Shown: positions 2,446 through 20,848 of the stretch, in pieces | Numbering within the stretch: position 1 is the stretch's first letter | How the letters are laid out: the number at the start of each line of letters is the position of its first letter | Source: Gracilaria domingensis | Lineage: Eukaryota; Rhodophyta; Florideophyceae; Gracilariales; Gracilariaceae | Direction of reading: 5' to 3' | Assembly (NCBI GenBank): GCA_022539475.1 | Contig: VCMS01000132.1 | Location: forward strand, 153,747-174,594 | DNA: 20,848 bases | The notes under the pieces: model-generated | Seen by the model: the letters and a program-made list of their open reading frames with translations, nothing else | What the model was told of the DNA's origin: nothing | The model's database searches: none | Position numbers and translations under genes: made by a program

Positions 2446-3723
2446 ATGTACTGCATCTCTACAACCATCCAAAGCCCCCTTTACTCTCCTTTGGTACGAA
2501 TTCGAAAACGAAACTGCTCCGCAATGGTCTTTCGCAATACACACCAAGTACGGGAAATCCCGCTAAACGATCGAATGCGTTCTGTATGTATCCAGCTGGA
2601 TGCTTTCCCACATGCAACGTACATCACTTTCAACAACTGCCCTCAGTTACAGTACGACCTCGATGCTGAAGAAGCTCACATTCGTGGGGTGCAAACTCTC
2701 ATCACTCCCGCACTGGAGAATGCGCTCAATGAGCTCTATGAAATACTACATGACACACCACGTCACGAAAGTATTCTGGAACACCCACCCTTTACTCGCG
2801 CTTTTCGAACTCTCCCAGAGCTTTCGAATTATATATATCAGTCAAGATTCTACTCTTGGAATCCTCTCAGCATGTTTTCGCCACCTTCAATGGTGTTATT
2901 TGCTTCATTGTTAACGGTAGCCATAGGCGCGCTTTACGGTATCATCAAGCCCGTCTTGGCCAAAGCGCTTCTATTCAAGCGCTCCTCCCGCCATGCTCAG
3001 CTAGGTTTCACCATTCTATACAGAATTCTGGAAACCATGTTACACATTATTCTCTTCGACCTCGGCTTTTCCCTACATGCCGCAAGATACGGTACCCTCG
3101 CTCTCGGACCGATGATTCCTTCGCACATGACGAGCACCTCTTCCATATTGAGGAATAAATACTTGGGTATAGAGGTCGGTGGCCTTTTCGCTCTCACTCT
3201 CTCCATCTTTGTCACCTATGAACTCCGTCCATCCCCGTCCAACCTTACAGATTCTGTCAGAACAGCCTCTATAGCTTTTTTTCCAGGTGGATTTCTATTC
3301 GGCCTATTCACTATCGTCGTGAACGCACTCTCTATCTTCTACTCTACAGGCAACACCTTTAACAACATTGTACCGCTCTCGTACCGCGTAGGAACTCGAT
3401 GGGAAAGGCTCTGTCTCTACATCCGTCGTGTCCTACACTCCTTCAGAAAGGCTCTCTTTTTCCATGATGTACTGCTCTCCATCAGAATGTTTTTGAACAG
3501 ATTGGTCCCAGTATTCTTCGCCCACACGCTTTCTGAGTCGCTAGAACCATCAGCCTTTCTTATGTACAGAGTTATCCCCCATCTTCTTACAAACACCCTA
3601 TTCGTTGCACTTCTTGTGTGTGCGGGTATTGTCAAGTACGAACCACGGGTCAACCTCAAGAGGTACTTGTGTGCACTCGGAGAGCATCCTAGATCCCAGA
3701 CTGGGCCTCTATTGGAGAAATAA
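2446..3723 (+). CDS. Multi-pass membrane protein of unknown function (425 aa)
   Basis: This is an intact 425-codon frame from ATG 2446 to TAA at 3721-3723; internal ATGs at 2524 and 2572 are alternative starts. The first 140 residues are soluble, acidic in the middle (DLDAEEAH), with no clear signal peptide. Hydrophobic segments follow at roughly residues 147-173, 186-212, 239-260, 273-299, 337-360 and 379-396, giving about six membrane spans with short charged loops. The tail is short and basic. No catalytic or transport motif was recognised. The length of the uninterrupted frame and the regular spacing of hydrophobic blocks support a real gene. It could be a host gene between two mobile elements or cargo of the element to its right; the sequence does not decide. 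Confidence 0.7.
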   Translation: MYCISTTIQSPLYSPLVRIRKRNCSAMVFRNTHQVREIPLNDRMRSVCIQLDAFPHATYITFNNCPQLQYDLDAEEAHIRGVQTLITPALENALNELYEILHDTPRHESILEHPPFTRAFRTLPELSNYIYQSRFYSWNPLSMFSPPSMVLFASLLTVAIGALYGIIKPVLAKALLFKRSSRHAQLGFTILYRILETMLHIILFDLGFSLHAARYGTLALGPMIPSHMTSTSSILRNKYLGIEVGGLFALTLSIFVTYELRPSPSNLTDSVRTASIAFFPGGFLFGLFTIVVNALSIFYSTGNTFNNIVPLSYRVGTRWERLCLYIRRVLHSFRKALFFHDVLLSIRMFLNRLVPVFFAHTLSESLEPSAFLMYRVIPHLLTNTLFVALLVCAGIVKYEPRVNLKRYLCALGEHPRSQTGPLLEK

Positions 3724-3957: not shown

Positions 3958-4164
3958 TCAGTTCTCCTCCCCATCCTCTGTCCCTTCCTCCATCCCCTGC
4001 GCTCCATACTTCTCGTCTTCTTCGTCTCTGTCCCCTTCCTCGACCATCAACTCATCCTCTTCGTCCTCGTCCTCCCCATCCTCCACCAGTTCTATGTCCG
4101 CGCAAGACCACCTGTGTTGTCCTTCATTCCCATGAGGTCGTCTTCTTCCACAAAAGTCGCTCAA
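3958..4164 (-). CDS. Acidic C-terminal tail, possibly the end of the oxygenase protein
   Basis: This is a 68-codon minus-strand frame, starting with TTG, directly after the oxygenase stop at 4161. It begins 'LSDFCGRRR' and ends as a strongly acidic run (EDGEDEDEEDE, EEGDRDEEDE, EEGTEDGEE) with a TAA-type stop at 3958. The oxygenase frame reads '...NHHF' then TGA in a run of five Ts; a one-base change in the T run would fuse the tail to it. Acidic tails of this kind are common in nuclear proteins. Low-complexity composition weakens the case, so this is a tentative extension and not an independent gene. Confidence 0.35.
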   Translation of the reverse strand: MSDFCGRRRPHGNEGQHRWSCADIELVEDGEDEDEEDELMVEEGDRDEEDEKYGAQGMEEGTEDGEEN

Positions 4165-5532
4165 AAATGGTGATTCAGATGAACTGCATCCGGCAAACTG
4201 TACTTCTCTGGTACCATATACATATGGTAGCGAAACAGTGGGTTTTCCGGAAATCTTCCATCTTTAGTGCCCGCACCGGCATGAAATACATCCCCCCTCC
4301 CAATAAACACAGACATAGGTGGGACAAAGAACTTTTTCACAACCATTCCTCGTGCCAACCCTTCAAAAGCCTTTGCTGTTACAGCAAAGTGACTGTGGGA
4401 TCCTTCACATATCCAAAGTGGGAACGACACAGTTCCGGAGACCATCACAAAGTACCCCGGGTTCTTCCCCTCCAGCTTGTCTTCGTTTGTCAGGGTCTCG
4501 AAGTCGGTATGTAGTCGCTGGCGCTGGCAAGCCACTCCGGTACATAAGATCCTCGCTCCGGTCCTCGGTGCATACATTCTCTCATTCGGTTGCTTGTTGT
4601 CTTGTAGCCCCAACGCCGCACATATCTAACCAAGCCGAGCATCTAACAAAGCCCTCTTATTGACAAGCAAATGCGTCTCCGGTCTATTCTCCAGCTCGTC
4701 CACTATACTTCTTCTCGTCGTCATATACCTCCCATTATCCGCGTTGATTATAGAAATCCATGTAGTTCGATTCTCTGATACCCTGAGGTCTGGGGCTTCT
4801 TCGAAACTTTTTTTGAAGAAGTCCAATAACTCGACGCTTACATCCGGATCGATGAGCTTGCTGGGACTTTCAGCCATCTTCAAAAGGTCGTTGTCACAAG
4901 CAATGCCTTCCAAAATACAGAAACCTCTCTCCCGAAGCTCAGCCTTCTTGTTCACAAAATATATATACGCGACGGAGTCGTTTTTCACTGCCTCTGCCCA
5001 TAGGTTCCCATCATCAACCTCCCCCTCTCCTACAGCCTCGTTGAGAAGCTTCTGTCCCTGATACGCAGCATGCCAAAACACAGCATGATGTACTCCTTTA
5101 AAGTCCTTCGGCTCGAGCAAATGGCCTCGGTGCTATTTCCGGAGATGTATCGCATCCATCCACGGATATACCGACTTAATCCCGTCCACTCCAGCAGGCC
5201 ACTTGGTAAAAACTGTTCAACAATTTCAACCACGAATCCCCCCCGTCGTAAGGTCCTTCGTCTGCTTTCTTCAGCCCCGGAGGTAGAATTTCCGGGACTG
5301 TGTCGTCGAAAGTATCCGTGTCGTTTCCTCGCGTCTCAACATTCGGCGCTGAATCAGAGTCCGTGTCGCTGCTGAAGGAGATTTGATGAGCTTTGAGGAA
5401 GCTTCTGACCCCTTTTCTTCCGAGCTTACGCAGATGATTGATGAAGAATGTTTCATCTTGGGGCACTTCGCTTACTTTCGCCTTCTTTTGAGCCATGGGG
5501 TTGTTATCGCTCATCATCTTTCTTCGTCGACG
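4161..5532 (-). pseudogene. 2-oxoglutarate/Fe(II)-dependent dioxygenase-like domain, interrupted
   Basis: The minus-strand coding region starts at ATG 5517 (or continues in frame from the upstream ParB region). The N-terminal part (QKKAKVSEV, ETFFINHLRKLGRKG) runs to about 5215. A T5 run at 5208-5212 then shifts frame into 'TKWPAGVDGIKSVYPWMDAI'. A TAG at 5133-5135 and another at 4626-4628 interrupt the continuing frame. The C-terminal 150 codons hold a 2OG/Fe(II) signature: HTD (codons 4509-4511 to 4503-4505), a distal His in 'GDVFHAGAG' (4281-4283) and a following Arg in 'FRYHMY' (4230-4232), with 'ERMYAPRTGARIL' before them. HxD...H binds iron and the Arg would bind 2OG. Oxidation of methylated bases or histones, as in TET/JBP, AlkB or JmjC enzymes, is inference. 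A 39-nt GT-AG segment at 5133-5171 would remove the first TAG as an intron. Confidence 0.65.
5133..5171 (-). other. Candidate 39-nt intron in the oxygenase region
   Basis: On the minus strand this segment starts GTATAT and ends AAATAG, is 39 nt (divisible by three), lies in phase 0 and contains the in-frame TAG. Removing it joins 'GVDGIKS' to 'HRGHLLEPKDF' without changing frame. The length matches the 39-nt candidate intron in the methyltransferase gene. No clear branch motif is seen, and the removed residues (YPWMDAIH) look protein-like, so a nonsense mutation is an equal alternative. Confidence 0.35.
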
Positions 5533-5535
5533 GCT

Positions 5536-7386
5536 TTATCTGGTGCTCCTTCTCAACCCCGCACCACTTGGCCTCACTAAGACCACGTCGCTTCCCACTT
5601 CCTGAACGTCTTCCCCGGCATTCTTCGCCTTAACAAATTTAGAACGCGACGCCCGAGTATCCGGTTTAGTGACTTGGGTCGTAGGCGTGGTCGCTTTTCC
5701 CCCTCCCGCCGTAGAAGACGGCCCCACAGTCGAATTGAAATCCACCCCGACGGACTTCTTCAGCTTTTCACGAGCATAAGCCACCCTTCTCAATATCTTT
5801 CCGCCCCAAAGCTTCTTTGTCGCTGCAGTTTCCAGGCGTGCGGCCTGTGTCGCAAGATACTCACGAAGGCTGAGTTTCTCAAACTTAGTGACTTCAATCT
5901 GCATCTCGTACACTTCCTTCAAAGAGAGTCTCTTTGTTTTCGATACTTCAACGGCCAGCTCATTTAGGGACCGGCAGCATATAAAGAAATACTTCCGTAT
6001 GTCTTCAAAGCGGCCCTTCAGTTTGGACTCTAGTCCCCTCGCAAAATATGCTGCCTGGGCGTCCAGGGTGAAATCGGTTGTGTCCTCATCCATAGAAAAG
6101 AACCCATCACTGGAGATACATGTAATACCAATTTCATTATACTCCCGACACACACTTTCCAAATGCTTCAGCAATCGAGGACTTTTAGCCACCTTCAAAC
6201 CCATCTCCGCAAACCTCGATAGATGCCTGATATGGTACTGACCTATGATTCCGCATACACTTAAGGCACCCGCTACAGCGGTCCTTGTCATGTTGTTCAA
6301 CACTTTCTTCTCCTCTTCAACCATCGCGGTTATAAAGGATACAATAGAATGAACCTTGTCGGCGAAGTTCATAAGTCGGGCCTGTTTCAGTCCATCGTTC
6401 AAAGCATTACCCAGGCTCAGAAGCTCCCTCGTTTTCATCATTTGTCCATTCCTTCTCCTCCATAAGGAAACGGTAAGTCCTTTACACAGTTTCCTTATCT
6501 TTGCATCCTCCTCTCATAGTTCCTTGAGTGCCACAAGATGATGAGCCCCATCTATGAGGATACACGTAACTTTCACCTGATTTCCCTCCACAATCTCCTT
6601 GTCGGACTTACCCGTGACCAAAATAGCAACACTTATCGTTCCAAGCGCCTGAAGAAACCCTTTCCTTCGAGTCTCCGCCTTCAGGGCTTCAACATGCTCC
6701 CGAACTGTCTCTCTCCCAGTTGCGTCCGGGATTTCGATTAGGTCGATGTCGACCTTCACGGACTCGTACTCATAATGGTCCAGGGTGAACTTGAGCGACG
6801 CCAGACTCATATCCACGTCATCCGAAGGTAATTCATCACCTTCGTCGAATAGTTCATTGACGTTTCCAGCCAAGCTCTCCTTCACCAAGGCAACGTCATC
6901 ATCATCCACTTCATCCACATCCACAACTTCCATTCTAGCTCCACTGCGACTCCCAGCCATTGCAATCGCTTCAGCAGGGCTATTTCTTGACGACCCAGAC
7001 TGCACATTCATCGCTGGCTGCTTCCGTAATGCAGAGACCGCACTCTCTGGAGTTGTGGTCAATTGTGCAGTTCCTACCTTTGTACCACCATGGTCTTGCT
7101 TAGATGGAGCTTTAGGAACAGGCCTAGGCGCTGGGGGCGGTACTTCCTTCCCCCCTTTGTTCTTCTGTTGTTGGCCTGGTGTTTTGGTCTGGGCTACCTG
7201 AGGTGGCAACCGCTTCCCACTCGGTGTACGCGGGTGTTTCGGTGTTTCCACCATACGCACTCGTTTCCCTCCTGTCGTGGATGCCGCATTGGTATGCCCT
7301 GATTTCTTACTGGGCACCTGCGGCGTGGTGTTCTGAACGGTCTCACCTGAAGCCATGAAGTTCAAGTCCCGCGCATAGAAACCCAT
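5536..7386 (-). pseudogene. ParB-like domain protein, in frame with the downstream oxygenase, interrupted by stops
   Basis: The frame from 7386 begins 'MGFYARDLNFMASGE' and passes a Pro/Thr/Lys-rich disordered region with basic patches, an acidic stretch (VVDVDEVDDDD), then a ParB/Srx-type domain. The domain has 'VDIDLIEIPDATGRE', 'VEALKAETRRKGFLQALG', and 'VTCILIDGAHHLVALKEL', corresponding to the DGxHRxxAL box with H in place of R. TGA at 6514-6516 follows, but the same frame continues (EEDAKIRKLCKG) into a 300-residue helical region (LSLGNALNDGLKQ, SPRLLKHLESVCREYNE) with a C-terminal basic/Thr-rich linker. TAA at 5536-5538 ends it, yet the frame stays open into the oxygenase N-terminus. 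ParB domains bind DNA, and some act as CTPases or nucleases. The role here is probably DNA targeting of the linked oxygenase (inference). Two stops in one otherwise open frame suggest decay of a single long ORF. Confidence 0.6.
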
Positions 7387-7391
7387 CTTGT

Positions 7392-7740
7392 TTAAGTCCG
7401 CATGGTCTTCGGAATGGAGTCTTCATCCGTACACTTAAAGGGATACGGGTACGGTGTATGGAGCTCCTTCGATACATCAGCTCGCCATATACCGACTATA
7501 TCCTCTCCCGGCTTCCCTTCCAGTGTGTGACCATGCATTTCTCTTCGATAGTCTTTGCCGTCGCCAGCACACTCGATGGCCACCACATCAGCCGTGCCAA
7601 TTGGGACCTTGTCCCCTCCATTCCCCGCGATAAGAAGCGTCACTTTGTCCCCCGGTGCGGGTTTCGCTTTCCCCGGGTTAGAGCTTATACTCTTCTCCGG
7701 ATTCTGTGCTTCCTCACTACTCTTCTTCCCTCCTTCTTTT
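7392..7740 (-). pseudogene. N-terminal beta-rich segment of the ParB/oxygenase protein, in a shifted frame
   Basis: This minus-strand segment reads 'GKKSSEEAQNPEKS', 'GKAKPAPGDKVTLLIAG', 'VPIGTADVVAIECAGDG', 'HGHTLEGKPGEDIVGIWRAD' and 'TPYPYPFKCTDEDS' before a TAA at 7392-7394. Its frame differs from the flanking coding on both sides. A one-base shift near 7400 joins it to 'EDHADLNKMGFYARDL', the start of the ParB frame, and another shift near 7725 joins it to the upstream segment. Alternating hydrophobic residues suggest a small beta-barrel (SH3 or chromo-like) module, but the family is not identified. Two compensating frameshifts, or one unusual intron arrangement, would explain it. Confidence 0.4.
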
Positions 7741-8100
7741 GTCTTCTTCGCACTTCAAAGATGCGGCGTCATGGGGTTGCGAACTTTCCGCGGGTTTCGG
7801 GAGCGCCTCATCTGCCGGGTCCCCAATCCTCTTGGCTCCATTATATAGCGTGTTCGATTTTAGCTTCGTCAAACACCTATAAAGGTTGAATGCAGAACAA
7901 AGCGGTAGTCGTATAATGCTCTGATCACGTCAGCAAACGGCGCACCCGCTCGGTTTGAACACGGTACACGCTTCGCTGTCGGTTGAAGTGTCGCACCCGT
8001 TCGTATCGCATATTTGTATTGCAGCACGCGGAAAGGCTCCCGTGAACATTCGCATCACTTTAAAAGAGTGGTATAGGCGGTTAGGGATGGTGTAGAAGGC
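7720..8100 (-). pseudogene. Probable N-terminal, Cys-containing part of the ParB/oxygenase coding region
   Basis: The minus frame in phase with the ParB domain is open from 8100 to 7933 ('FYTIPNRLYHSFKVMRMFTG', 'RAAIQICDTNGCDTST', 'KPSGCAVC'), hits TGA at 7930-7932 and continues open to 7720 ('LPLCSAFNLYRCLTKLKSN', 'RIGDPADEALPKPAESS', 'CEEDKRRREEE') before TAG at 7717-7719. The composition looks protein-like, and the Cys spacing hints at a metal-binding or disulfide module. No ATG was found in frame near the 5' side, so the true start is unknown. An upstream exon or plain chance are alternatives. Confidence 0.35.
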
Positions 8101-8165
8101 TTAGATGCATACCAGGCAGCATGATCAACCCCCACGGTTCCCCCCTGGTACTCTCCTGTGGTGGC

Positions 8166-8295
8166 CGGATGCGACGTGTTCAGGCCGCGGTCTGGACCGC
8201 AGTCAGCCGAATTCATAGCCTAGATCATGACCATGATCTCGGCTATGAACGCGGCTGACTGCGGTCCAGACCGCGGCCTGAACACGTCGCATCCG
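8166..8295. repeat. 130-bp near-perfect palindrome (foldback)
   Basis: Arms 8166-8220 and 8241-8295 are inverted copies, 55 bp long with two mismatches (AATT versus the CGTT-type pairing near 8210-8211). The centre 8222-8229 / 8232-8239 (AGATCATG/CATGATCT) is itself a perfect inverted repeat around AC, with one mismatch at 8221/8240. The whole 130 bp could therefore extrude as one hairpin. The outer 38 bp equal the terminal repeat of the 8140-9386 element, which suggests two element ends joined head to head. Confidence 0.9.
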
Positions 8296-8299
8296 TCTA

Positions 8300-9330
8300 C
8301 CCCGCCACCCTACGGGGGGTGGGAAAGCAGGTTGTAGGGTACAACGTAGAGCTGAGTAGAGCTACGCAGAGCACATTTGTCGTTTCACATCGCAGTTTAT
8401 ACGTATCTACATAGAGGCAAGAAACAATTTCGCGCGGATTTGGTTTAATCGATGTTCAGTTTGAATGCCGAAGAGCAGAGCCATTCGAGAATGAGGGTAG
8501 TGGTGGCAGCACCAATCGCAATTGTACGGGTATTATGGTCATGGCTGTTTGTCGTGAAAGCAGTCTCAGAGGGACCCTCATCACGTTCAGTGGCGGGCGG
8601 CGACTGTACAGATCGTGTCATTGACGTTTTATGCTCTTGGTGTGGGTGCGAAGATGTTTGTTGGCGCTGCATCATCAACACGGTGTGAGCCAGAAAGTGC
8701 AATTCACGCAATATGCGCTAGCTCGTATCAAACTGAGCCCCTGAGACAGAAATTCAGCCCGGCGGTGGGTGTGTAGCGCAGTCATTAGGCATACCGAGAT
8801 CAGCAGCTGCGGCCACGGCGGCTGCATTCGTCAAGGCAGCGCTATTATGGGTGTTTGCGCCTTGCGACGGTCGTCTTCATTACGTGAAAGGCGCGGCGGA
8901 CGCCTGGCGAAAAGGAATGTGAGCACTGTAAAACGTCATGCTCGTTACTACATTGGAATTACCAGTACGGGGATAGGAAAGACCTAAGCTGCATGTTGTT
9001 CCGGACGCTCTTGTTGTTGAGTGCGACGGATGCGGTGGTCGAATATTGCGATGACGATGGCGTCTGGACGCCTTGCGCCTGCGCAATGCAACCGCTCTTT
9101 GGGTATGCGTCGGCGTTGGAGCGCAAGCGGCGAGGGTAGAGGCGGAGAGCGTACAGCAGATTTGTATGCAGCCGTATGATGGAGGCTATGATGATGATGC
9201 AGATAATGATGTGGGGGGAGCGGGTCGGTGTCGGAGAACGGCGATTCTGAGTCGTATAGGACCATATCTCATCTGCCCCATGCGCGCTACAACCCTCTCT
9301 ACACGTGGCCTGATACCTGGTTCCACAGTC
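8300..9330. other. Interior of the candidate element; no supported gene
   Basis: Open frames of 60-140 codons occur on both strands but overlap each other, are composed of simple Arg/Ser/His-rich or ATG-repeat sequence and show no motif. No tRNA, rRNA or other RNA gene was recognised. A GATGATGATG-type microsatellite lies at about 9181-9214. Confidence 0.4.
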
Positions 9331-9332
9331 TC

Positions 9333-9356
9333 TAGACCGCGGTCCAGACCGCGGTC
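9333..9356. repeat. Tandem self-complementary 12-mers AGACCGCGGTC(C/T)
   Basis: AGACCGCGGTCC is followed directly by AGACCGCGGTCT. Each holds the 10-bp perfect palindrome GACCGCGGTC with a central CCGCGG. Related sequence (GCCGCGGTCTGGACCGC) occurs in both arms of the palindrome at 8166-8295. Subterminal repeated palindromes are typical transposase or DNA-binding protein sites, but no binding evidence is available. Confidence 0.7.
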
Positions 9357-9496
9357 TGAACACGTCGCATCCGGCCGCCAGGGGGGTCACTACTAGGTGA
9401 TTCTACACAAGTCTGCGTACTACACCCGCTCTTGCAACCCTGTTCATACCCTCCTGCGTACGACTAACACCCGCTCAAATACGAATTTAGAATAAC

Positions 9497-9588
9497 GTTT
9501 CATCACCGCCGTCTACTACTCTTTCGAGAACTCCTCCAGCGAGTTTCATCGCCACCGTCTATTCCGCTTTCGCGAGTTCTTGCGAGAG
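9497..9588 (+). repeat. Imperfect 46-bp tandem duplication abutting the methyltransferase start
   Basis: 9497-9542 and 9543-9588 are two adjacent copies of a 46-bp unit beginning GTTTCATC[A/G]CC and containing CTTTCG[A/C]GA. The second copy ends four bases before the ATG at 9593, so the pair forms the 5' leader or proximal promoter. Further upstream, CTGCGTAC followed by ACACCCGCTC occurs twice (from about 9413 and 9453). A regulatory function is inference. Confidence 0.65.
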
Positions 9589-9592
9589 TTAC

Positions 9593-12500
9593 ATGGCGCC
9601 CGTCGGAAACAGAACCCTCTATGGTCTTAACAGCAGAGCGATGTCGACTACCGCATCTTCCGTGGCATCTACGGAGTCTAGCTCCGATGAGAAGGATATT
9701 ATGGCGACGCGGTTCCTTCGTTTGTTCAGCATACTTCTCGAGCTGAGAGACTCGTTTGCGGCGTCTCGAGGCTGCATTGGTTCCCCTCGTCAGGTTGGAT
9801 ACACGGCTCTCGTTGAGTACTTTGTCGCAAACCGTGCCAGTCTGGCTTGTGCACGGGAATTTCTCACGGATGTTACGAAGAGCACGTACGCAAACTATAC
9901 GCCGCAGGAGCTGGTGAAGATAAGTACCGATGTTAGGTTCATAAGTCGGGTCTGGAAGTATGTCCGTATCATTGACGTGGTTGACTAGAGTGCGGATCGT
10001 CGGGTGAGGGATCTTTTCGAATGGAGTTTGGATAAGAATGTGGATGGCGGGAATTCTTCTATGGAGCGTGTGTTCTGGAATGACTTACTCAAAGAGCATG
10101 GTCCCGGATCCAAGCAGACGAAGAAAACTACCTTCCGGATTGAGCCTTCTACTCGTTTTCAGCAGTTGCTTTATCTATCCCTAGTGAAGCATATCACTAT
10201 GGAGAGGCGACTCCCAGTTGCGAAGAAGGCGAGGACTGCAACTGGTTCTCGGAGACAGGTGCCGTTTGTTGATGGTTTCGTCATGTCAAACCAAGCGCAC
10301 ATAAGGCGGATGGGTTATGCTGTGCAAATGGTATGTCTAGGATGGGATTTCTTTGCTTCCAGTCTTGGATGTCGTGACGCCGAACAAATGCTGTTACCGT
10401 TTGTTGCCGTGGAGAAAGCGACGCTTTCTTTCGGCGCAATTGAGTCCCGTTCTTCCGGATACAGCCCAGCATCGGTGTTCAAAACATTGGGGAACGAAGT
10501 GAAGCCAACCACAGAGGTCAACGCTACTGTGCCTTGGGTTCACACCCTTTCGGATGATATCGATACCAAACTAAGAGAATTGTCAAAAGAGTTCCTGTCC
10601 GATTTGAACAAGGTTGTCTTAAACAGATTTCTGTACAAAATGTCCGCTACTACCAAGTGGGAACTGCTGGAAGGCTTTCGAAGGAAACTTCAAACACATT
10701 TTCTATCTCGTTTTGATGCTTTCTCCGATGAGTATTTGGCTACTCTTCGTACCGCTATTGTCCAGCTGAACCTGAGACCTTCCCAGCAGCCATCCCGGGC
10801 CACTCTGTCAGGACGTCAGGAAGGGAGCAACACGGTCACAGTGAAGATTGAAGATACGGTTACGGCACAGAGAACCATTTCCTTGCGGCCAAGGGCTAGG
10901 GCGGTGGGTAAAACATCCGGTAAAAAATCCAGTGCAGACCCGGGTCCGGTAGATTTCATTGTCATAGACGACACGGATGAAGACGACGATGGAGCGCACC
11001 CCCTTTCTAATGTTCCTGATGATATTATTCCACCTCACGACTTTGGCGATGTAAGGACGACGAAGGCTCTCGGTGTGGTCAAAAGGAACATGGAGCAACA
11101 GTTCTCTATGCATTGCGTTGGTCATGAAGAGTTAGTGGAGGCTCATGGTACACTGTTCCCTTCCGATAATTCCCTAGAGGGCAATGTTCAACTCGTACTC
11201 ACGGACCCACCTTATGGTATACGTGACAGTGAGCATGATGAGCTTCTCGACGAAGATATGGTTAATACTGCAGAAATGATGGCCTCAATGCTTTGCCCTG
11301 GCGGTCATTTTATAATGTTCTGTACTATCGAACAGTTCGCGGACTGGGAGGAGATTCTACGTGAGCACAAATCGGAGAATGCACTGGGGAGGCAAAGTGC
11401 TTCGTTCTTAGTCGACCCCACACCGATGCAATTCATTCGCTCTCGTACGCATACTTTGAAGAACCCCGGAAGGAACACAACACGGTTGTTCTCTGCAACC
11501 GAGTATGCCGTGCACGGAGTCCGGAATGGAAACGCGTACGAAGAGCAGAAAGTGATGGTGAACTACAAAAATTTCAACTACGTTCCCACGCAGTACCCCG
11601 AGCGTTACTCTATTATCAATCAGGTTCCGCATCTGGAGGCTGGTGAAGGACTCCGTTGGAGGGTAAAGAAGCGTTCCAAAATACACTCGGTTCAGGTTCG
11701 CCCCGACCAGAAACCGAGGGCACTGCTAAAGGAAGTCATTGCCAGGTTCTCAAATCCTGGGGGCGTTGTGGTTGATCCCTATAGTGGAAAATTTTCCGGT
11801 GCCTTGGAGTGCATGAACATGGAAGAGCCCCGACGCTTCATTGGATTTGAGAGGGATGAGCAGTGCTTCGCTCATACTGAACACAATGCTGTAGTGATGT
11901 ATGCGAGGAAGGTTTGGGGTAACGAGTTCAACGCAAGAATAACTGTCAGTAATGAGGTCGTTCAAGCCTCGTATTTAGTACAGACAAAGTTACTGGAAGG
12001 GAAGCAAAGAACCTCGCGTATATGGACCGCACCGAAAGGATTCCCGCCATACCAATGTTTTTCGTTTCATATCAATTCCCACATCGCAACTTTTTGCAGA
12101 GAACGGAGTCTCATCGCGCAGCACAAGGAGAAACCTGTGCACGAGTGGCCTCTGAATCTCCAAGGCACATTGGAGACGATGGATGTACAGAGTTTGCTCG
12201 CCGCTGAAGCAGCAGGTTTATGGTTTTACAGGAAGAAATCAAACATCAAACACCCCATAAGTGGAGATGGAGTGTTCAGTAGTAGATCGTTCTCGGAAGG
12301 AGAGGTTGTCGGGTACTTCCATGGGACATTGGTATATCATGACATAAGCCGACGCAAGGCAACACAGATGAAATACGGAAGCGGAGTGCTCGGTGCCACC
12401 GTTTCTCGTTTCAGGGGGTATTGAATGGAAGTGAAGCTGTAAGGGCAGATGTACAGCACGCTTCCTGACTACGATTCCGAAATCAATACTGCGATTGCAT

Positions 12501-12772
12501 GGGTAGTACCAGCTCTTTTCTGTATAGCGGGCTACATCAATGATGCTTCGTACCGGGATGGGGACGAAGAGAAGGATTTGGCCGAGATGGAGCCTTACCA
12601 AGGCCGCTTACCAAACGTTATTATTCGACAGCCTTCCGAGCATCAAGCTACCACATTGGGTACACTCGCAAGCTATAGACTACTGTTGGTGACGGCTACA
12701 AGGGATATTCATGAACACGACGAACTGTACGTAGACTATGGACCCAGCTATCCATGGGAGAGGTATTTGTAA
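9593..12772 (+). CDS. DNA adenine-type methyltransferase fused to a SET-domain protein methyltransferase
   Basis: Three exons, 9593-9957, 9991-12417 and 12457-12772, join to 1,036 codons including the stop (1,035 aa). The ATG at 9593 has a good context (TTACATGGCG). The N-terminal 500 residues are helical, with an acidic, basic and disordered linker near residue 440. Motif IV 'DPPYG' (Asp codon at 11204, residue 527) precedes motif I 'DPYSGKFSGA' (11774, residue 717) and acidic motif 'GFERDEQC'. This IV-then-I order is that of class-beta amino-methyltransferases (N6-adenine or N4-cytosine). A SET-like domain follows: 'GDGVFSSRSFSEGEVVGYFHG' region from residue about 880, 'FCIAGYIND' in place of the usual NHS box, and 'DELYVDYGPSYPW' at the end. 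Both catalytic signatures look intact. It probably writes DNA and histone (or other protein) methylation in the nucleus; substrates are unknown. Confidence 0.8.
9958..9990 (+). other. Candidate 33-nt intron 1 of the methyltransferase-SET gene
   Basis: It begins with GTATGT, contains TTGAC branch-like motifs and ends CTAGAG. Its length is divisible by three and it removes the in-frame TAG at 9986-9988. Splicing in phase 2 joins 'RFISRVW' through N to 'ADRRVRDLFEWSL'. The alternative is a nonsense mutation splitting the gene, in which case translation could restart at GTG/ATG codons downstream of 10004. Confidence 0.55.
12418..12456 (+). other. Candidate 39-nt intron 2 inside the SET domain
   Basis: It begins GTATTG and ends GTACAG. 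Its length is divisible by three, in phase 2, and it removes both TGA (12422-12424) and TAA (12437-12439 region) that interrupt the frame. The joined product 'VSRFRG-TLPDYDSEINTAIA' links the two halves of the SET-like domain at a position where other members have a variable loop. A pair of nonsense mutations is the alternative. Confidence 0.55.
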
Positions 12773-13320
12773 CTCTCCCATGCTTTATAGTTTGACGTAG
12801 TACAAACTGTTGTAGTGTATTTCATAACTACTGCGTCATTTATTGAATGCATTCATCATTCCAGTAAACCTATTGTTGCAGGAATCGACAACGTGGCACA
12901 AGGACACATTGTCGTGCTAAGCAAAGAGCTACTAAGAATACTCCACAGCGGTCAGAGCTACCACCTCAAAAGCAACCCTTCAGAACTAACACCTCACACC
13001 CGGGAGGTTGGACCAAGGAGCAGAGGACCTTCATCATGAAGGGACCCGACAGACGGACCTGGCACATAGAACATAGCCAGTGAAAAATACGGCCATGGGA
13101 AATGTGGAAAATTGGTATGAATGTCTGCCACAAGAATGGACCAGCTCACTCAGGGCTCAAGAACCACTGAAGGTCTCCATCACCTGCTGCAAGGTTTCAC
13201 AAGCTTCCGCTCTTCCGCTTTTTCACCCCACACTACGAGCAGGACTCCAGAAGCTTCCGTTTCCGCACTCTATAATCCGAACATAATCCCTTCCTTTTCA
13301 CACGATTTTGAAGCGCAATC
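12773..13320. other. Intergenic region between the methyltransferase-SET and coiled-coil genes
   Basis: No supported gene. The first 100 bp are probably the 3' untranslated region, and the last 100 bp probably the promoter of the next gene, with TATAATCC near 13271 about 50 bp upstream of its ATG. Open frames here are short and lack recognisable features. Confidence 0.4.
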
Positions 13321-15836
13321 ATGGCTCCACAAAAGCCCAGCAACGCGGACGACCGGGAGACGAAGGGATCCCAAACAATCCCGCGATATGGTATTGGCAT
13401 CGCTAAGCGCAAGAACCCTCCGCCTGCCGCGACCCGGAGAAGTACTCGACGACGAGCTCCTCGTGTCGGGCTTACTGGAAAGGAGTCTGGTTCGAAGTCA
13501 GCACTCCGGGATTCGAAGGCAAAACCGAAACCGAAGCTGGGTGTTAGTACGACCACAACGGAAGTGACAGAGAGCGAAGTAGTTTTACCACATCACAGTT
13601 CAGTGGAGGGGCGGGTTACACGACACATGGCTGCAGAGGAAGTGCCAAGAATAATCGATGATGCGAATTTGGAAGAGAATGGTGCCGAGAGACGTACGAG
13701 AGCGAAAGGAACACGGACAAGAAATTTGAGAAACAATGTCATCGAAGAAGAGTTGGACAGACATGAAAGAGCAATCTCACCTGGTAGGACGAGGGGCATT
13801 ACCAACGATTTCATTCAACCTCTACGTAGTAAGGACGAAGAAGAAGCCGATGATATACAGCCCAATGTACATGCGCTCGCAACATCGCGAAGGGAGATAA
13901 AAAATCGGAAGGATTCTCTTCATGCCGATCGTGCTGGTGACGAGGAAGAAGTCGATAACATACAGTCCTCTGTACGTGTGCCCGCACCGTCGAGGAAGAG
14001 TTTCCGGAATGGAAACGATTCTATTCATCCTGAACGTCGTACGAACGAGGAAGAAGTCGACGAGATACAGCCTGCTCCTCGTACGGTCGTACCATCGCAG
14101 AATAGGTTCAACCAAATGAGAAGGAAGGGTTCGACCTCGATTTCCTTTGGCGAGATGCGTAGGGAACGGACAGAGGTGGGGTCAGAATTACCAAGAGAGA
14201 CATGGAACGAAAGGGGTCGTAATGTGGCAGGTCGCCGGAAAATTAACCGTACGCTTCTATCTCGTGCTCTTGCTGGTGTAGAAGAAGAAGGTGAAGAAGA
14301 TGAAAGCCTAACGCCACGCTACGAGCTCTTGGACAAGATTGGAGACTTGAAAGCGGATCTCTTTCGAGTAACCGAGGATAATCAAAGTCTGAAGATGAGC
14401 GTAAGAATAGCACGGAAAAGCGTGACGGAACTAGAGCTAAAGGTGAAGGAGCAAGATGTTCTAATACAATCACTTCGAGAGGCACTGAAGCGAGGAGCAA
14501 CACGGAGGGAGCGTGATTCGCACACGGTAAGGAAAAGATACGAGATTGGTGTGAACGACGCGTATGTAGGGGTTGCGAAGACAGTATACGAGTCCATACT
14601 GCGATACGCGAAAGACGAGACGAGGGAATTGTGCTTCGAGATGATTTCACCCCGAGAAACTGAGGGAATCGAAGTGAGACACTCGGACCTGAGACTGAGT
14701 ACAGTGTCCTGGTCGTTGATGGGAAAGAGATTGTTCCACGCTGTCCAATGGAGGTTGCGATGGAGATGAGAGCGTATACTCCATCGAGTCGTGGTACGGG
14801 TCATAGCTTGCTGATGCAAATCGTGGAGACGGAGGTAATGAAACCTCGTTGGGAATCCGTCCGGGAGATGAAGATGGAAGAAGACTGCATCAGACAGCTG
14901 ACCAGCGACATGTGCTTACGGAAGAGGTTGAAGCAGGCCTTGAGCGATGCGGTGGGGGTTCGAAAACGCCATGCGAAGGAGAAGTTGTTGATGAGGCTAG
15001 GGTATGACATGTTGGTGAAGACACCATCTCATGAGAGGGAGAGGAGCATGTACCTAAAACAAGCGGAGGAACTACGGGAGAAGCTTCTGCCGCTAGATGC
15101 AAAAGAGTGTGAGGTTCTCTCCAGATGGAGAACATCCAAAAGAGAGGACATATCATTTTCCGGGTTCAAAATCCGTGGCGAAGAGAACAAGCCGCAAGAC
15201 TTGCTGTTTAGAAACGTTCTAAGCCTATAGGTATTACGGGAGTTTCTGGGTTACGATGTGAACCAAAAGGATTCGAGAAATGCGGGAAACAAGAACTCAG
15301 TGGATGGCACAATAGTGCAGTTGGCGCGTCTAGACGCTTGGATCGCGTCAGTTGTTCGCGCTACAGAGTTTGAAGGAGGGAGGGGCGGTAAAAGGCAAGT
15401 GTTGTTCTCCAACCTTTTCGGAAAGTAAGTTGCACAGGCGTTGGAAGGTATACTGATGGCTGTACGAATGAAAATGGAGCAGAAGTTTGGAACGGAGTTC
15501 AGGAACGACTCAATGGCTCAAGTTCCACCCCATGAAAATGATGACCGTGTGGGAACTGTGGCATACTGGATACCGTCTAAGAAGAAGCTATATCTAGCTG
15601 TTCGGGAAGATGTATTCATGGAAGAGATTACGGAACATCATGGAGCCGTATTGGATTGCTATATTGGATATTGTGACCCACGGGATCGCGTATACTTCCC
15701 TATAAGAGCAATCGATGAAATCCAAGATAATGATGTGATCGATTGTAATCCGAATGTCTGGGAACAAAGTAGGGAACGAGACGGGGGAGGCGTGGACGAT
15801 GAGCACGAGATGGAAGACGAGGAGGAGAATATCTAA
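13321..15836 (+). CDS. Basic, repeat-bearing coiled-coil protein of unknown function (transposon accessory candidate)
   Basis: ATG 13321 (context CAATCATGGC) opens 450 codons. Residues 1-75 are very basic (RRSTRRRAPR, KAKPKPK), 172-276 hold three 35-residue repeats keyed by [D/N]EEE[A/V]D[D/N/E]IQ, 320-327 are acidic, and 331-391 form a heptad coiled coil (YELLDKIGDLKADLFRV...LIQSLREALK). The frame then changes near 14674-14730. A GTGAGA donor with AG at 14699 (26 nt) or 14729 (56 nt) rejoins it to 'IVPRCPMEVAMEMRAY'. That part runs to TAG at 15228-15230, continues in the same frame, and meets GTAAGT at 15425, where a 78-nt intron to TTCAG (15502) leads to the last exon ('VGTVAYWIPSKKKLYLAV') and an acidic C-terminus. 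No enzyme motif is recognised. The single TAG is not explained by a good intron, so the copy may be damaged. Confidence 0.55.
13834..14135 (+). repeat. 105-bp coding tandem repeat, about 2.9 copies
   Basis: Units begin at 13834, 13939 and 14044 with GA[C/A]GA-type codons for [D/N]EEE[A/V]D, each exactly 105 bp (35 codons); the third decays towards 14135. All copies keep frame and share the DEEE..IQ core followed by a basic segment, pointing to expansion of an alternating acidic/basic interaction module. Confidence 0.8.
14674..14699 (+). other. Candidate short intron (26 nt; alternative 56 nt to 14729)
   Basis: GTGAGA donor in phase 0 at 14674 with acceptor AG at 14699 or 14729. Both restore the frame used by the downstream 160-codon segment. 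The 26-nt choice keeps 'SVLVVDGKEIVPRCP'; the 56-nt choice has a more usual length. A simple frameshift is the alternative. Confidence 0.35.
15425..15502 (+). other. Candidate 78-nt intron in the coiled-coil gene
   Basis: It has a GTAAGT consensus donor, a TACTGAT branch-like motif at about 15450, and a TTCAG acceptor. Its length is divisible by three, in phase 2, and it removes TAA at 15426-15428. It joins 'LFSNLFGK' to 'NDSMAQVPPHENDD'. This is the best-supported intron of this gene. Confidence 0.55.
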
Positions 15837-15978
15837 AGTACATGAACAGTTTATGTTAAGATTGTTACGTAGTACGAGTATGATGAATGTGGGCTCGAGG
15901 GTTACGATAGAATCTGTTAATGTAGAAACGATGGAATTGCCAGTGAAGGGGAGGGAAAAATGGACGGGCAGCGTAGTT

Positions 15979-18900
15979 TTAGCGAATGACCTGTATGGAG
16001 CCTTTGATTGAGGAGAACGGGATAAGCACGAACCAAGGAGAGACCGTAGCAGAACGAGGTTTCATCCTTGACGTACTTGGATGCACGGTGTGATCATGCT
16101 CATCGTCGGTGGCCCAACGGAGTGATATACAGTTCAGAGTTTCATCAACGTTATCCAAGGGCTCCGTCACTTCAAAGAAACGAACGAAAGCGAGATCCAA
16201 TTCAGAGTTGTTCCTGACGCGAAGCAATGCAAATACTTTGCATACCCACGCTGTGGAAAACGTACAGTTGGGAGGGAGTGTTCCGTGCACGAGAACCGTG
16301 GAGAACTTAGGCAACCTGGAAGGTCCGAAGGAGGTCGTAGCGAAGATGAGTTCACACAGTTGTACATCCAGCTTTCTCAATCTTATGCATCGAAGATCCC
16401 GATCGTAATCATCGAGGGAGGGGCACAAGCCGCTAAGAACGTATGCAGAGTTAACAGCAGTGAATTTGATGTGTGAGGGTTCTTCAGCTGTTGAATGGTT
16501 TCTACACAAAGGGTGCGGAAGGAGGTGAGAGCGTCGAGAGATATTTGGTTGATGAACTGCAGTGTGGTTGCCGAGAAAAGTTCTGCCAGAGCCGAAGAAG
16601 ATACATGTGGATGCGATCGTAGGTACTTGTCAGCTGTGATGATGTCAAAGAGTGAGAAGAAGTTACCATCGAGAACCATGGCCGGAAAGCGGTTGATGGA
16701 AGGGCTGCGAGAGTTGGGGGAGACAGAGAAATGACTTTCGACCGAAAGGGATTGCAAATAGTCCTGCGACTCTTGAATGGCGTTCACCGTTTCCTTATGA
16801 GCTGTAGTTCGCCTTCGAGAAGTTCGACGATAGTGGTTCTCGAAGAGAAGATGAGCATGTTCGTACACGCCTGCATTGCCGAAATGCAGGCCTCCGTATC
16901 GCCGTATGTCTGGAATGATGTGGTCAGGGAGGTGGAACTTAAGAGTACGAAAGTTGGAGGCTTGGTGCAGGCCGAGAATGGAGACTGTGTGAAACTTGAA
17001 GATTTTTATCATAGTTTCCAACGCATCTAAGCGATGCTCCGTCCATTCTGGAGTGGTATTGTAACGAAGGACGTTGTCGACGAGGTCAACGTAGGATGTG
17101 AACACGGTGGTAATAGAGGCGGAGGATTTCTCACCACAACAGCGGTCAAAGAAAGCGGCAATGAAAGGGAAGAACATATCAAGGGAATGGTAGTCCTTGG
17201 CTTCCAACATACCCTGATGCCGTCTGTCGTGAAGAAACCGTTGAGAGAATTTCCTGTTTCGGATGTGGAGAAGTCGATGTGAAGTCCGGATGCCAGATAG
17301 GAGCGCTCAATGTCGGCGAGAATTGCGTTGGCGTGGCTGAGAATAGAAGTTCGAACGGTCTTGAAAGACCTCGGGTTTCCCTGAGAACCAACAGAAGTGT
17401 GAAGCGAATCGGACTTGAGGCGTTCAATCGAGGCGAGTTTGATGAGTTTTGACATTCCGAGATGAAAGTTATGAAGGGACTCGAAGGAGAAGATTGAGTA
17501 AGGAGTGAGCAGCTCGGAGACATTGAGCATAGGGAATCATTCGAGAAAGGACTTGTAAGTGGATAAGGAGGTGGTTTGGAGTAGTTCAACAGCTTCATTT
17601 CTCAGGGTCCTTGCCACTCGAAGTCTGCGGAGAGCAGAGCCTGTTCAGCGCCGGTAAGTAGATCTTGTTGTTTCTTTCTCGTTGCAGAGGCGTGGGATAC
17701 AGTTCGCTCATTGAGAATGGCTTGATAGACGTTGAGTTGTGAACGAGGGATAAGGCATCTGTGACAGGGCTTGTTTGGTTTCGTGCCGTGGAGGACAGCG
17801 AGAATGTCCTTTGCTTCGGGAATGTCAGCGCTAAAGTTAGCGATGATGGGATGGCACTGACGAAGGACTCCCTTGGCGTCTCTGAAGGGAAAGCCTTTTT
17901 TGCATATGTCGTACAGAGGTTTGAGTATAGTTTCCAAGGACTTCTGGAAGAGCTCCATGCGCACAACGCGAGTTATGTTCGACGAAAAGGGGCCAATTTC
18001 CAAAGAATCGGTGTCGGTGGAGGAAGAATCGGGGGAGAAGGATGTAAAGGAAGTACGAATGTAGCCGACGAGAGTGTGGTGGTGTGTGATACATTTTCTG
18101 CGGAAAGAGTCCTTGAAGTTGAGAAACGTAATATGGAGGGGGTATGATGTGACAGAGGAGCTTTTTAGCGTGGTGGAGGACTTATCGGAGTAGAGTTGAA
18201 GCATGCCGATGAAACGTCTATACCAGTAGTGGTGGGATCATGCCAGATGACTCCTGGGTTTGGAAATGTGCGATGTGCTTTTTCAGAGCGGGAACGACGT
18301 CATGTCCGAGTTTGGAGGCCATGGATGCGCAAATGCGTCGGTTCCTGTGCGGAGGCGTGGTGAATTGGGTGAAAGAAGGCGTTCTCATGGGATGCTAGCC
18401 GAAGTTGTTGTTGAAGGACTTGAATGGGGTCCTTGACGTAGAGGGTGGCAGAAACTGACGGTCGTTATCGTGAATGGTGGTGGAGGTGAAGCCAATGGAG
18501 CTCACGGTCTCTCTTCAAAGATTTTGGAGTGTAGTTTGAGACACTCAGAAGCGGAGGTGATGGGGGTTTGGAGAAGAGAAGGGGGAAAGTTGGACTGCCT
18601 GAGAATGTTGATAACCTCGTCTGCGTTTCGTGGCGATGGAGGAAATGTATGTGACGAGATTTTGAATGTTATCAGTTGGAGCGGGTGGAGAGAGGGCATG
18701 ACCGGAACCTACGTAGAGGGACTGAGAATTGAATGGGTGTTGTGGTGTAGCTAGATGTGCCGCGTCAGAAGAACGTATGGAGAGAGCGAGCTGCTGTTCT
18801 TCATACGGTTCGTCAGTGGCGAGTGCGACATTATCGGAGGGGCGGTTGGAGGGAGAAGAGAGAGGGGGTTTGGTACTGCTGAGTCGGCGACGTTTCGTTC

Positions 18901-19189
18901 GGGCGGGGGGAAGAGGGAACCGCGGAGGCCTGCAGGAGTGAGAAAAGGGTTTGGGCCATTCCAGTGCCTGCAACGTTTCTAATGTTGTGCGAGGGAGGCG
19001 ATAGAGTCTGTGTGAAACGTACAGAAGGGGAAGCAACATATGTACATGATGCAGTAGGGCGGGGAGGGGGGGGAGCGGAGGTCTAAGGTGCAGTGTTGCA
19101 ACTTGTAGGAAATTGTTGCCGTACCGTGTGGGGGAGAATATAAGGAGAGTCGAATCGGCGCTATGCACGTGATGGTTTACGTACATCAC
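15979..19189 (-). pseudogene. Plavaka-like (CACTA/EnSpm-related) transposase, degenerate
   Basis: Minus-strand blocks occur in the expected order but in changing frames. They are an Arg/Ser/Pro-rich N-terminus (19189-18545); 'NADEVINILRQSNFPPSLLQ' (before 18502); 'YVKDPIQVLQQQLRLASHEN' (18440-18300); 'MASKLGHDVVPALKKHI' (18322-18218); 'WYRRFIGMLQLYSDKS' to 'GVLRQCHPIIANFSADIPEA' and 'KPCHRCLIPRSQL' (18231-17602); 'FESLHNFHLGMSKLIK' (17530-17220); 'GMLEAKDYHSLDMFFPFIAA' to 'KFHLPDHIIPDIRRYGGLHF' (17210-16383); and 'FVRFFEVTEPLDN' plus 'IPFSSIKGSIQVIR' (16509-15979), with 'FAKTTLPVHF' in another frame just beyond. The LYSDK, RCHPI and CxxC boxes match Plavaka-type transposases. At least five frameshifts or stops make it inactive unless unpredicted introns remove them. 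Confidence 0.75.
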
Positions 19190-19434
19190 GATAGGAGATG
19201 GGTACGTCGAGGAGGGACGGAATTGGGAAAAACTGAAAACATTCCTAAATTTTTGAGCCCATACTTTGCGGCCGGCGTGAACTCTACACTAGACGTAGTT
19301 AGTGCTGCACTAGAGAAGTCAAAAAAGTGCCATGGCACGGGCCTGACCAGTGCGATGCGAGCTCTGATCATGGCACTTCTCTGCGACACATTATCTTCCA
19401 GATCATGCGAGTTCCATACAGGTACGTGAAACAC
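19190..19434 (+). other. Possible 5' exon of a spliced unit, with a hairpin
   Basis: An 88-codon plus frame ('KFLSPYFAAGVNSTLDVVSA' and 'LRALIMALLCDTL'-like composition) ends at a GTACGTG donor at 19422. Around 19326-19378 the sequence AAGTGCCATG is inverted as CATGGCACTT, with AGAGAAG/CTTCTCT further out, so the RNA could fold. Coding status is uncertain; no motif was recognised. Confidence 0.3.
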
Positions 19435-19760
19435 GTAAGGGTTTCGACTTACTGCGATCTTATTTGTTGCTGACCTAGTTCGATGCGAGCGATGTACGAA
19501 TAACGAGCGAAAGACTATTATTCAGATCATGCGAGTGACATACTGGTACGGTTGACACTCTATCTACGGTTGTCATGGGATCTAGTTCTTGCTGATCCCG
19601 TTTGACGCCAGCGATTTGCGGAGAGCGAGCAAAGGTTCTAGAAACGCATGTGCGCGCTCGTAAGGTACGTCGCTAATTACGCTCTAAGAAGCGATTCGAG
19701 TGAGAAATGTACTACAATTCTCACTGGAGACGCTTGTAGAACTTAATTAGCGAGGTTCTA
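19400..19760 (+). repeat. Diverged tandem modules with exon/intron-like borders (first set)
   Basis: CAGATCATGCGAGT followed by a 6-8 bp spacer and CATAC[A/T]GGTACG occurs at about 19400-19427 and 19524-19552. TGCTGA[C/T] then a CGATGCGAGCGAT/AGCGATTTGCGGAG-type segment occurs at about 19469-19492 and 19591-19622. Each GTACG could serve as a donor and TGCTGACCTAG (19468-19478) as branch plus acceptor; intron 19422-19478 is 57 nt. A third weaker donor (AAGGTACGTC) lies near 19661. The reading frames do not stay open through all joins, so a non-coding spliced RNA or a decayed gene is likely. Confidence 0.45.
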
Positions 19761-19915
19761 ATGACTAACAGCTGGTTTGGTTTTAGTTCTGGCTTAGTGA
19801 ACTTTGGGTGTCCATTGAATTGGCTTGGAAACTGTGGCACAGGGGGGCGTTGAGGGTAGATGGTGGAGTGGTAGACCGTGAGGTGTCCATTATCAGGACT
19901 GGAAGACATGGAGAG

Positions 19916-20013
19916 GTATGTAACAATAACTTACGAGGAGAGTTTTACCTTTGTCGTATATGTACTAACTGTGTGTCCATTACTGCTTGCAATTTTCGAT
20001 CCATGTTGAATAG
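19916..20013 (+). other. Candidate intron (98 nt) with TACTAAC branch site
   Basis: GTATGT donor at 19916, perfect TACTAAC at 19963-19969, and the first downstream AG at 20012-20013 (GAATAG). Spliceosomal signals are strong even though the host transcript has no clear protein. Confidence 0.55.
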
Positions 20014-20053
20014 GAACGGGAACGTTCACTTTCCTATTCAACATGGGTCGAAA
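19994..20053. repeat. Inverted repeat, 23-bp arms
   Basis: 19994-20016 and 20031-20053 are inverted copies with a single mismatch (20000/20047, a T-G pair in RNA). The loop 20017-20030 contains GAACGTTC, itself palindromic. The hairpin spans the predicted acceptor at 20013 and would place it in a stem. Confidence 0.85.
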
Positions 20054-20177
20054 CTCTAGAAAACATGGATCGTGAAGCAGTGGAGGGTGAATGTGCAGCA
20101 TTAGGAGGCGTTGAGGGTCGATCGTGAAGCAGTGGAGGGTGAATGTGTCGCATTAGCGGACTGGAAGACATGGAGAG

Positions 20178-20277
20178 GTATGTAACACGAATGAATCGAG
20201 AAGAAGTTCGTGTGTATTATCTGATTGCTAACTGTGTGTTTCATTACTGCTTCTTGGGGGTCTTGATTCTTGAATAG
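20178..20277 (+). other. Candidate intron (100 nt), paralogous to the one at 19916
   Basis: GTATGT donor at 20178 preceded by the same 19-bp exon end, GCTAAC at 20227-20232 followed by TGTGTGT as in the previous intron, and GAATAG acceptor at 20277. It is homologous to the upstream intron by eye. Confidence 0.55.
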
Positions 20278-20321
20278 GGACGTGAAGTGTGTTTGGATAC
20301 GAAACTGGAGGATTTGAAAAG

Positions 20322-20380
20322 GTAGGGAGATATCGCATTGAAAGGTTGTGTGTGCGCTATGGGTACTAACTGTGTTTCAG
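20322..20380 (+). other. Candidate intron (59 nt) with TACTAAC branch site
   Basis: GTAGGG donor at 20322, TACTAAC at 20364-20370, TTTCAG acceptor at 20380. A further donor-like GTAAGA at 20447 and CACTAAC at 20496-20502 suggest that the series continues to the right. Confidence 0.55.
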
Positions 20381-20541
20381 TGTGTGTTTCTGTGCGTGCC
20401 GCGATGAAAGTGTGTGGACGTGATTGGGACTGAAAGAGATGGAGAGGTAAGAGTTCAGGTATCGAAGAGACGTTTCTTGGTTGTTTTGAGTATGGCACTA
20501 ACTTTGTGTCCGTTACGGCTTTCTGTGGTGATGCGATTGAG

Positions 20542-20848
20542 GTATGTGGACTGTGCGAAGGAAGAGGTTACATGCAACAGCCGATGAAGAAGTTGTGAAG
20601 ATGAGTTCTGGTTTGATCATGGTGTTTTGAGGATATGCGGTTGCGGTGGTGGTGCTCAGGGGTACTGCAGAAATGAATGTTCCAGCCGTAGTATTCTCGG
20701 AGGCTGGCTGCGTCGGTCCAGACTGGTCCTTTCTCTGGGCTTCCCATGTGGTCCGTTGTGGACCACCCGAATGGGCCCACTCACCTAGAGCACTAGCAAA
20801 AGTGGAGACTGGAAGTACGGTTCTGCCATCTTTCATACTTGCTAGTTT
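20542..20848. other. Right-edge stretch without a supported gene
   Basis: It starts with another donor-like GTATGTGG, so it may be intronic or exonic sequence of the unit to its left. A 7-bp hairpin GTGGTCC/GGACCAC lies at 20748-20766. A 107-codon minus frame covers most of it but is Thr/Ser/Pro-rich and motif-free. Nothing else was recognised. Confidence 0.35.

Follow-up and report, generated by a model that had tools for sequence, protein, structure and literature searches.

The question raised by this locus is whether one protein carries both a DNA amino-methyltransferase (MTase) and a SET domain. A preliminary description of the window (the whole stretch of 20,848 nucleotides analysed here) had proposed such a protein as the 1,035-aa product of a gene with two introns, and as an enzyme directly linking two epigenetic layers. 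DNA and histone marks are normally coupled via separate reader and writer proteins. The features on which our answer draws are the following:

4150..20848, no strand: stretch common to the window and the copy on contig C157; the right end of the window is the end of its contig
4164..7422, minus strand: decayed companion gene in divergent orientation, with a ParB-like part within 6517-7422 and a putative dioxygenase-like part at 4164-5132
8160..8301, no strand: large palindrome between the divergent genes, with 70-nt arms that are 93% complementary and a folding z-score of -21
9593..12772, plus strand: decayed copy of the MTase-SET fusion gene, with in-frame stops at 9986, 12422 and 12440
11186..11869, plus strand: N6_N4_Mtase domain (PF01555), residues 395-622 of the open reading frame (ORF) 10004-12424, with a motif-I-like stretch at 11774
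12257..12772, plus strand: SET domain (PF00856), interrupted by stops in the window copy; 16.2 bits for the piece 12449-12772, 23.1-32.3 bits in five relatives
13312..15836, plus strand: broken coiled-coil gene, of which three pieces within 13312-15425 match a 695-aa frame on contig C359 at 34-48%
15441..15836, plus strand: ORF counted with the coiled-coil gene, taken from the ORF list only
15982..18708, minus strand: Plavaka-type transposase in pieces, convergent with the MTase-SET gene; five pieces match a 1,100-aa transposase frame at 33-66%

The motifs that had suggested the fusion are present in the window as described. DPPYG at 11204 and DPYSGKFSGA at 11774 share the open frame 10004-12424, with motif IV ahead of motif I, and the SET-like segment starts in that same frame (GDGVF, 12263), continues with GYIND at 12530 and ends with DELYVDYGPSYPW at 12719 (DELYVDYG). 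The profile check gave a divided answer: PF01555 (N6_N4_Mtase) matched the frame 10004-12424 with an E-value of 2.5e-14 and 54.2 bits, above its Pfam cut-off of 26.7, but PF00856 (SET) reached only 16.2 bits in the piece 12449-12772, below its Pfam cut-off of 22.4. PF05063 (MT-A70) was absent among the Pfam matches of the window protein up to E 1. The two introns and the spliced product did not hold up. At the stop codon 9986, 12 of 15 aligned close copies have one shared amino acid (two have stops and one a gap), and at each of the stop codons 12422 and 12440 one shared amino acid stands in 13 of the 15 copies, with one other residue and one gap. No indel private to the window copy was seen in this alignment, and the copy on contig C157 (L011) has a 1,121-aa open frame, stop to stop, that runs through the stop sites of the window. 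Since sense codons occupy the stop sites in 12-13 of the 15 copies, the introns are artefacts, and what the window contains is a pseudogene that, as read from its stops, is unable to make the full protein.

The fusion itself was borne out by the relatives of this copy in the same genome. All five open-frame relatives tested (L047, 1,055 aa; L048, 1,141 aa in the part of the sequence analysed; L001, 634 aa; L022, 1,118 aa; L011, 1,121 aa) scored above both Pfam cut-offs, with 53.7-73 bits for PF01555 and 23.1-32.3 bits for SET, and each is a single open frame holding both domains. The proposal of one protein with both domains thus stands for these relatives but not for the window copy, which is not one intact protein. 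We then consider the genome as a whole through profile lists holding the best 150 of 328 MTase candidates and the best 150 of 311 SET candidates. Among the matches listed, 76 of the 150 MTase matches are followed on the same strand by a SET match 365-445 bp downstream, and an opposite-strand SET match within 2.5 kb occurs for none of the 150; because the domain pair recurs across the genome in this one orientation it is not due to chance. The listed matches merge into at least 216 MTase/SET places (76 pairs, 74 MTase alone and 66 SET alone), a count that includes fragments and perhaps a few host SET genes and from which the eight best SET matches, taken as host genes, were left out. At least 11 of the listed pairs lie in a common stop-free frame of 1,050 aa or more. 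Judged by profile matches and open frames, a PF01555 DNA methyltransferase is truly fused to a SET domain.

The surroundings of the gene tell to whom it belongs. The window and the C157 copy show 91-94% identity from about position 4150 up to the window's right end, with one segment of 89.6% near that end and with part of the compared C157 stretch reading N, and a terminus-like motif lies on C157 about 182 bp past the window's right end. Two copies of the 1,055-aa type, on contigs C120 and C359, can be followed together for about 22.4 kb, their long segments being 95-98.5% alike; their flanks differ on both sides and the repeat region between the divergent genes is rearranged. Both have short terminal inverted repeats (CGTCTGT..ACAGACG), of which the outer CG is possibly a target site duplication (TSD) or a part of the repeat, no other TSD being seen in these two copies. 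For comparison, the part of PMC12730594 covered here gives Plavaka termini as TGT..ACA with a 2-bp TSD (PlavakaA) and CATCA..TGATG with a TSD of 2-3 bp (PlavakaB). The gene order of the C359 element is a 415-aa frame, two HAD-hydrolase frames, the companion (minus strand), MTase-SET, the coiled-coil gene and a 1,100-aa Plavaka-type transposase (minus strand), and the MTase-SET frame is broken in both of these copies, the two measured end to end. The core of this order is also found in the window, where PF18759 matched a transposase piece at 17602-18204 with an E-value of 2.2e-19.

The same association was seen genome-wide in a list of at least 123 scored Plavaka matches out of 672 candidates. 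Of these 123 listed matches 41 have a convergent MTase/SET place within 8 kb, where about 1.4 would be expected, and one has another arrangement; within 20 kb the numbers are 44 convergent and 6 otherwise arranged. The remaining 79 of the 123 listed have no convergent MTase/SET place within 20 kb, 6 of the 79 having one in another arrangement. Our reading of termini, gene order and neighbourhood is that the MTase-SET gene belongs to a Plavaka-like DNA transposon with several genes, about 22 kb long where measured. Because it is carried as cargo by a transposon, the gene should not be viewed as one for a host enzyme that links two epigenetic layers. As a side observation, the two HAD-hydrolase frames of C359 matched PF08282 with E-values of 3.1e-11 and 9.4e-5, and the 415-aa frame, which was without a Pfam match, has a GRGRIG stretch that we take to resemble a nucleotide-binding reductase; this addition in the longer element type (L043, L044, L046; C359) is unusual cargo for a DNA transposon.

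The companion gene is decayed in the window and has open frames elsewhere in the genome (L119 and L120, 1,308 and 1,326 aa, 30% identical). Of the matches to one companion type, 20 of 61 have MTase-SET in divergent orientation within 12 kb and one has it in another arrangement; for the second type the numbers are 18 of the 50 matches used (from at least 150 listed) and none otherwise arranged. About one divergent case would be expected in each. The companion frames carry an N-terminal DG.HR stretch, which we take to be like that of ParB-type proteins, and a C-terminal HTD...H...R pattern, presumably that of a 2-oxoglutarate dioxygenase. The companion had no Pfam match and no relevant PDB match, and a weak match to a ParB PHROG (E 0.0085) was found for L119 only. 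An AlphaFold model of the dioxygenase-like piece from one sequence had a mean pLDDT of 32.4, and the case for calling the companion dioxygenase-like, which rests on motifs, is thin. The palindrome between the divergent genes contains CCGCGG and has a related half copy at 9335-9380. Its core recurs in the 63%-identical subfamily B (L022), and elements of the C type have different palindromes at the equivalent place, with CCGCGG clustered there. It is our guess that the palindrome is a candidate binding site of the ParB-like protein.

To ask how far the two domains are maintained we compared subfamilies and young copies. Between subfamily A (L011) and subfamily B (L022) pN is 0.144 in the MTase and 0.147 in the SET domain but reaches 0.235 in the linker and 0.252 in the N-terminus, with an overall pS of 0.73 at which synonymous differences are near saturation. 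On these values the MTase and SET domains are the best-conserved regions and have been maintained by selection between A and B. Within the 1,055-aa type, the pair L047-L004 gave a dN/dS of 0.32 overall and 0.64 for SET alone, with few changes, and L047-L049 gave 0.30 overall; any signal of selection on SET among young copies is therefore weak. In a six-way alignment that includes the distant relative P0001 (below), three features of the SET domain never vary: the GxGxF stretch, the second N and the last Tyr. The replacement of H by D in the NHS box, remarked upon earlier for the window, was found again as N-D in five of the six aligned proteins, L048 having NH. Motif I of such methyltransferases is usually GxG. 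Here GTF stands in this place in five of the six proteins of the alignment, GTS in L001 and GKF in the window, a variation that could alter catalysis. Motif IV varies as DPPF in L047 and EPPY in L048, and DPPY or DPPF favours adenine. The 1,055-aa type also has PKKKRKV at residues 202-208 of L047, which we take to be the textbook nuclear localisation signal.

A search of the PDB with the alignment matched the C-terminal part of the MTase domain to Dpn-type enzymes (E 8.2e-16) and to CcrM (E 8.8e-11), with PDB entries 6pbd, 5hek and 5hfj for the two kinds together, and more weakly the SET part to EZH2 (E 1.4e-5) and SETD8/KMT5A (E about 0.002). The likeness to the Dpn- and CcrM-type adenine methyltransferases consists of this sequence match and of the order of motif IV then motif I. 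These are bacterial enzymes without a SET domain. With an 806-aa query, a search of a protein database yielded a single relative, P0001. This protein of 1,142 aa comes from a contig of 3,816 bases (source 'lgn', presumably the Logan assemblies) and is 25% identical to the window protein. In one chain P0001 has matches to a ParB PHROG (E 2.1e-5), to PF01555 (E 9.4e-15) and to SET with 19 bits, below the cut-off of 22.4. Comparison of its N-terminus with the companion by hhalign gave an E-value of 0.012 and a probability of 3.5%, which is suggestive only of a common origin; the AlphaFold model of P0001, built from a three-row alignment, has a mean pLDDT of 33.0. The same database search with the six-protein alignment found nothing, not even its own row P0001, and likewise nothing with the Plavaka transposase. 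As the alignment query missed P0001, the search is either insensitive or without such proteins and its silence says little.

The methylation background of the host bears on what such a protein might do. Ten of 12 phycobilisome-family matches fall on contig C680, which resembles the plastid genome of a red alga. A red alga is the probable host, and the assembly may be contaminated or mixed. A fungal host, which the Plavaka match had at first suggested, was rejected in view of these phycobilisome matches and of a hydrophobin search without a match, in which the control was silent as well. A C5-DNA-methyltransferase (PF00145) was not found in the source genome by an exon-by-exon search, which was positive in 10 of 14 control genomes and which a heavily split gene could escape. 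MT-A70 likewise had no match in the source genome, but here the control was silent too. It may be that the genome has no recognisable nuclear DNA methyltransferase other than the transposon enzyme. We also counted 678 singleton changes in the 16 rows formed by the window and its 15 close copies. C>T singletons in CA, CC, CG and CT contexts numbered 54, 59, 62 and 54 at 441, 406, 412 and 400 sites, about equal and without an excess at CpG, and decay of the copies by RIP or 5mC was rejected. The lack of a PF00145 match together with the lack of a CpG-specific C>T excess in the A copies does not suggest a role in 5mC removal.

The reading that we favour, though it may equally prove wrong, is that the intact element protein would mark its own transposon DNA and chromatin together with the companion, as a form of self-marking or anti-silencing. 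Intact copies would encode a nuclear protein, as PKKKRKV in the 1,055-aa type suggests. Its MTase part would methylate adenine, less likely cytosine-N4, in the element DNA, and its SET part would methylate lysines of histones or of another nuclear protein at the element. It would work with the divergently encoded ParB-like/dioxygenase-like companion, and the marks would keep element copies permissive and recognisable rather than strip host 5mC. The modest SET scores, the N-D in five of six proteins, the unusual motif I, the weak SET signal among young copies, the listed Plavaka matches that lack a convergent MTase/SET place, the broken MTase-SET frames of the two copies measured end to end and the motif-based dioxygenase call count against this explanation. 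In a bolder form, which we offer tentatively and which is doubtful in its entirety, a dual writer would put DNA amino-methylation and a lysine-methyl mark on its own copies with the ParB-like/dioxygenase-like partner, and in a red alga without 5mC enzymes would be the sole nuclear DNA methyltransferase that can be recognised, so that the element would bring its own heritable epigenetic code.

Control of transposition in the manner of Dam fits nearly as well as self-marking. Dam regulates transposition of the bacterial IS10/Tn10. By analogy the MTase might mark element DNA chiefly to regulate transposition, through timing after replication or transposase access, and the SET domain might methylate the transposase or the coiled-coil protein rather than histones. 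The convergence of MTase-SET with the transposase, the CcrM and Dpn-type relatives in the PDB search and the absence of any sign of a host 5mC system to counter are all consistent with such a role. The sequence does not separate it from chromatin marking, SET substrates being unreadable from sequence, yet the SET matches are to histone methyltransferases (EZH2, SETD8/KMT5A), a slight lean to histones. We regard it as a real possibility, if on the whole an unlikely one.

Rather improbable is a fusion in which one domain or both have little catalytic power and serve as a reader or scaffold, binding DNA or SAM, so that the protein would be no dual writer. N-D in five of six proteins, a motif I off the usual form and a window SET domain below cut-off point that way, but the two domains are the most constrained between A and B, and the three SET features named above (GxGxF, second N, last Tyr) do not vary among the six. 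Very improbable is a viral or phage-derived insertion (from a giant virus, a polinton or similar). ParB-plus-methyltransferase proteins occur in phages, and P0001 has its PHROG matches, but against this origin stand the terminal repeats of the cluster, its Plavaka transposase and its numerous copies; the frames tested, which were a part of all frames, contained nothing recognisable as a capsid or polymerase gene, and the 17 loci found in a scan of viral_contigs match only query residues 514-797, outside SET. A prokaryote scan gave 51 loci, all matching within query residues 517-800 and likewise outside SET. Least credible of all is that the window fusion is a spliced two-intron host gene: GT..AG pairs do lie around the stops, but 12-13 of 15 copies have sense codons there, the window has no private indel and the gene runs through one uninterrupted frame of 1,055-1,121 aa in related copies.

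Several parts of this system have precedents, each taken here from the parts of the sources covered. In Chondrus crispus, En/Spm transposons of 16-20 kb with 4-5 ORFs have been reported (Kojima, Bao, Jurka 2013, cited in PMC6431247). Like the element described here, they are CMC-type DNA transposons of great length that carry additional genes in a red alga; the products of the extra ORFs are unstated in what PMC6431247 gives there, and MTase-SET may or may not be among them. SET genes are carried by HarbingerS and MuDR of Phytophthora, and TET/JBP genes by fungal Plavaka, Kyakuja and others (PMC12730594). As described there these too are DNA transposons with chromatin- or DNA-modifying enzymes, thought to escape silencing, and Plavaka is among the carriers; they carry SET or a TET dioxygenase, whereas here an amino-methyltransferase-SET fusion stands beside a different dioxygenase-like protein, in a genome where no C5-methyltransferase was found. 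The N4CMT of bdelloid rotifers joins a bacterial-type amino-methyltransferase to a chromodomain reader (PMC8885841). It shares with our protein the combination of such a methyltransferase and a chromatin domain in a eukaryote; in the sections covered N4CMT is a host enzyme that marks transposons, whereas here the partner is SET and the gene is the transposon's. The 'giant repeats' of Amoebidium are large gene clusters by Plavaka transposases, many of whose genes are tyrosine recombinases (PMC11244446), and resemble our elements as big clusters beside Plavaka transposases in a non-fungal eukaryote; MTase-SET goes unmentioned in the parts of PMC11244446 covered. No report of an amino-methyltransferase-SET fusion was found in this literature, and a Repbase report on red-seaweed transposons, which possibly lists these elements, was outside its scope. 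As far as these sources go, there is precedent for SET and TET genes on transposons and for multi-ORF transposons in red algae.

A polypeptide spread by a transposon, with both kinds of methyltransferase and conserved between subfamilies, would offer a simple natural test of whether coupled marks suffice to maintain a chromatin state. If it is active, a red alga without a detected C5-methyltransferase would get DNA methylation from mobile elements. Two frames elsewhere in the window may be noted on their own. At 108-719 on the minus strand lies a frame that was without a reverse-transcriptase Pfam match and that we take to resemble the beginning of a reverse transcriptase of the Ty3/gypsy type. 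A 425-aa frame at 2446-3723, not part of the stretch common to the window and C157, looks membrane-spanning and has a weak permease match (E 0.019).
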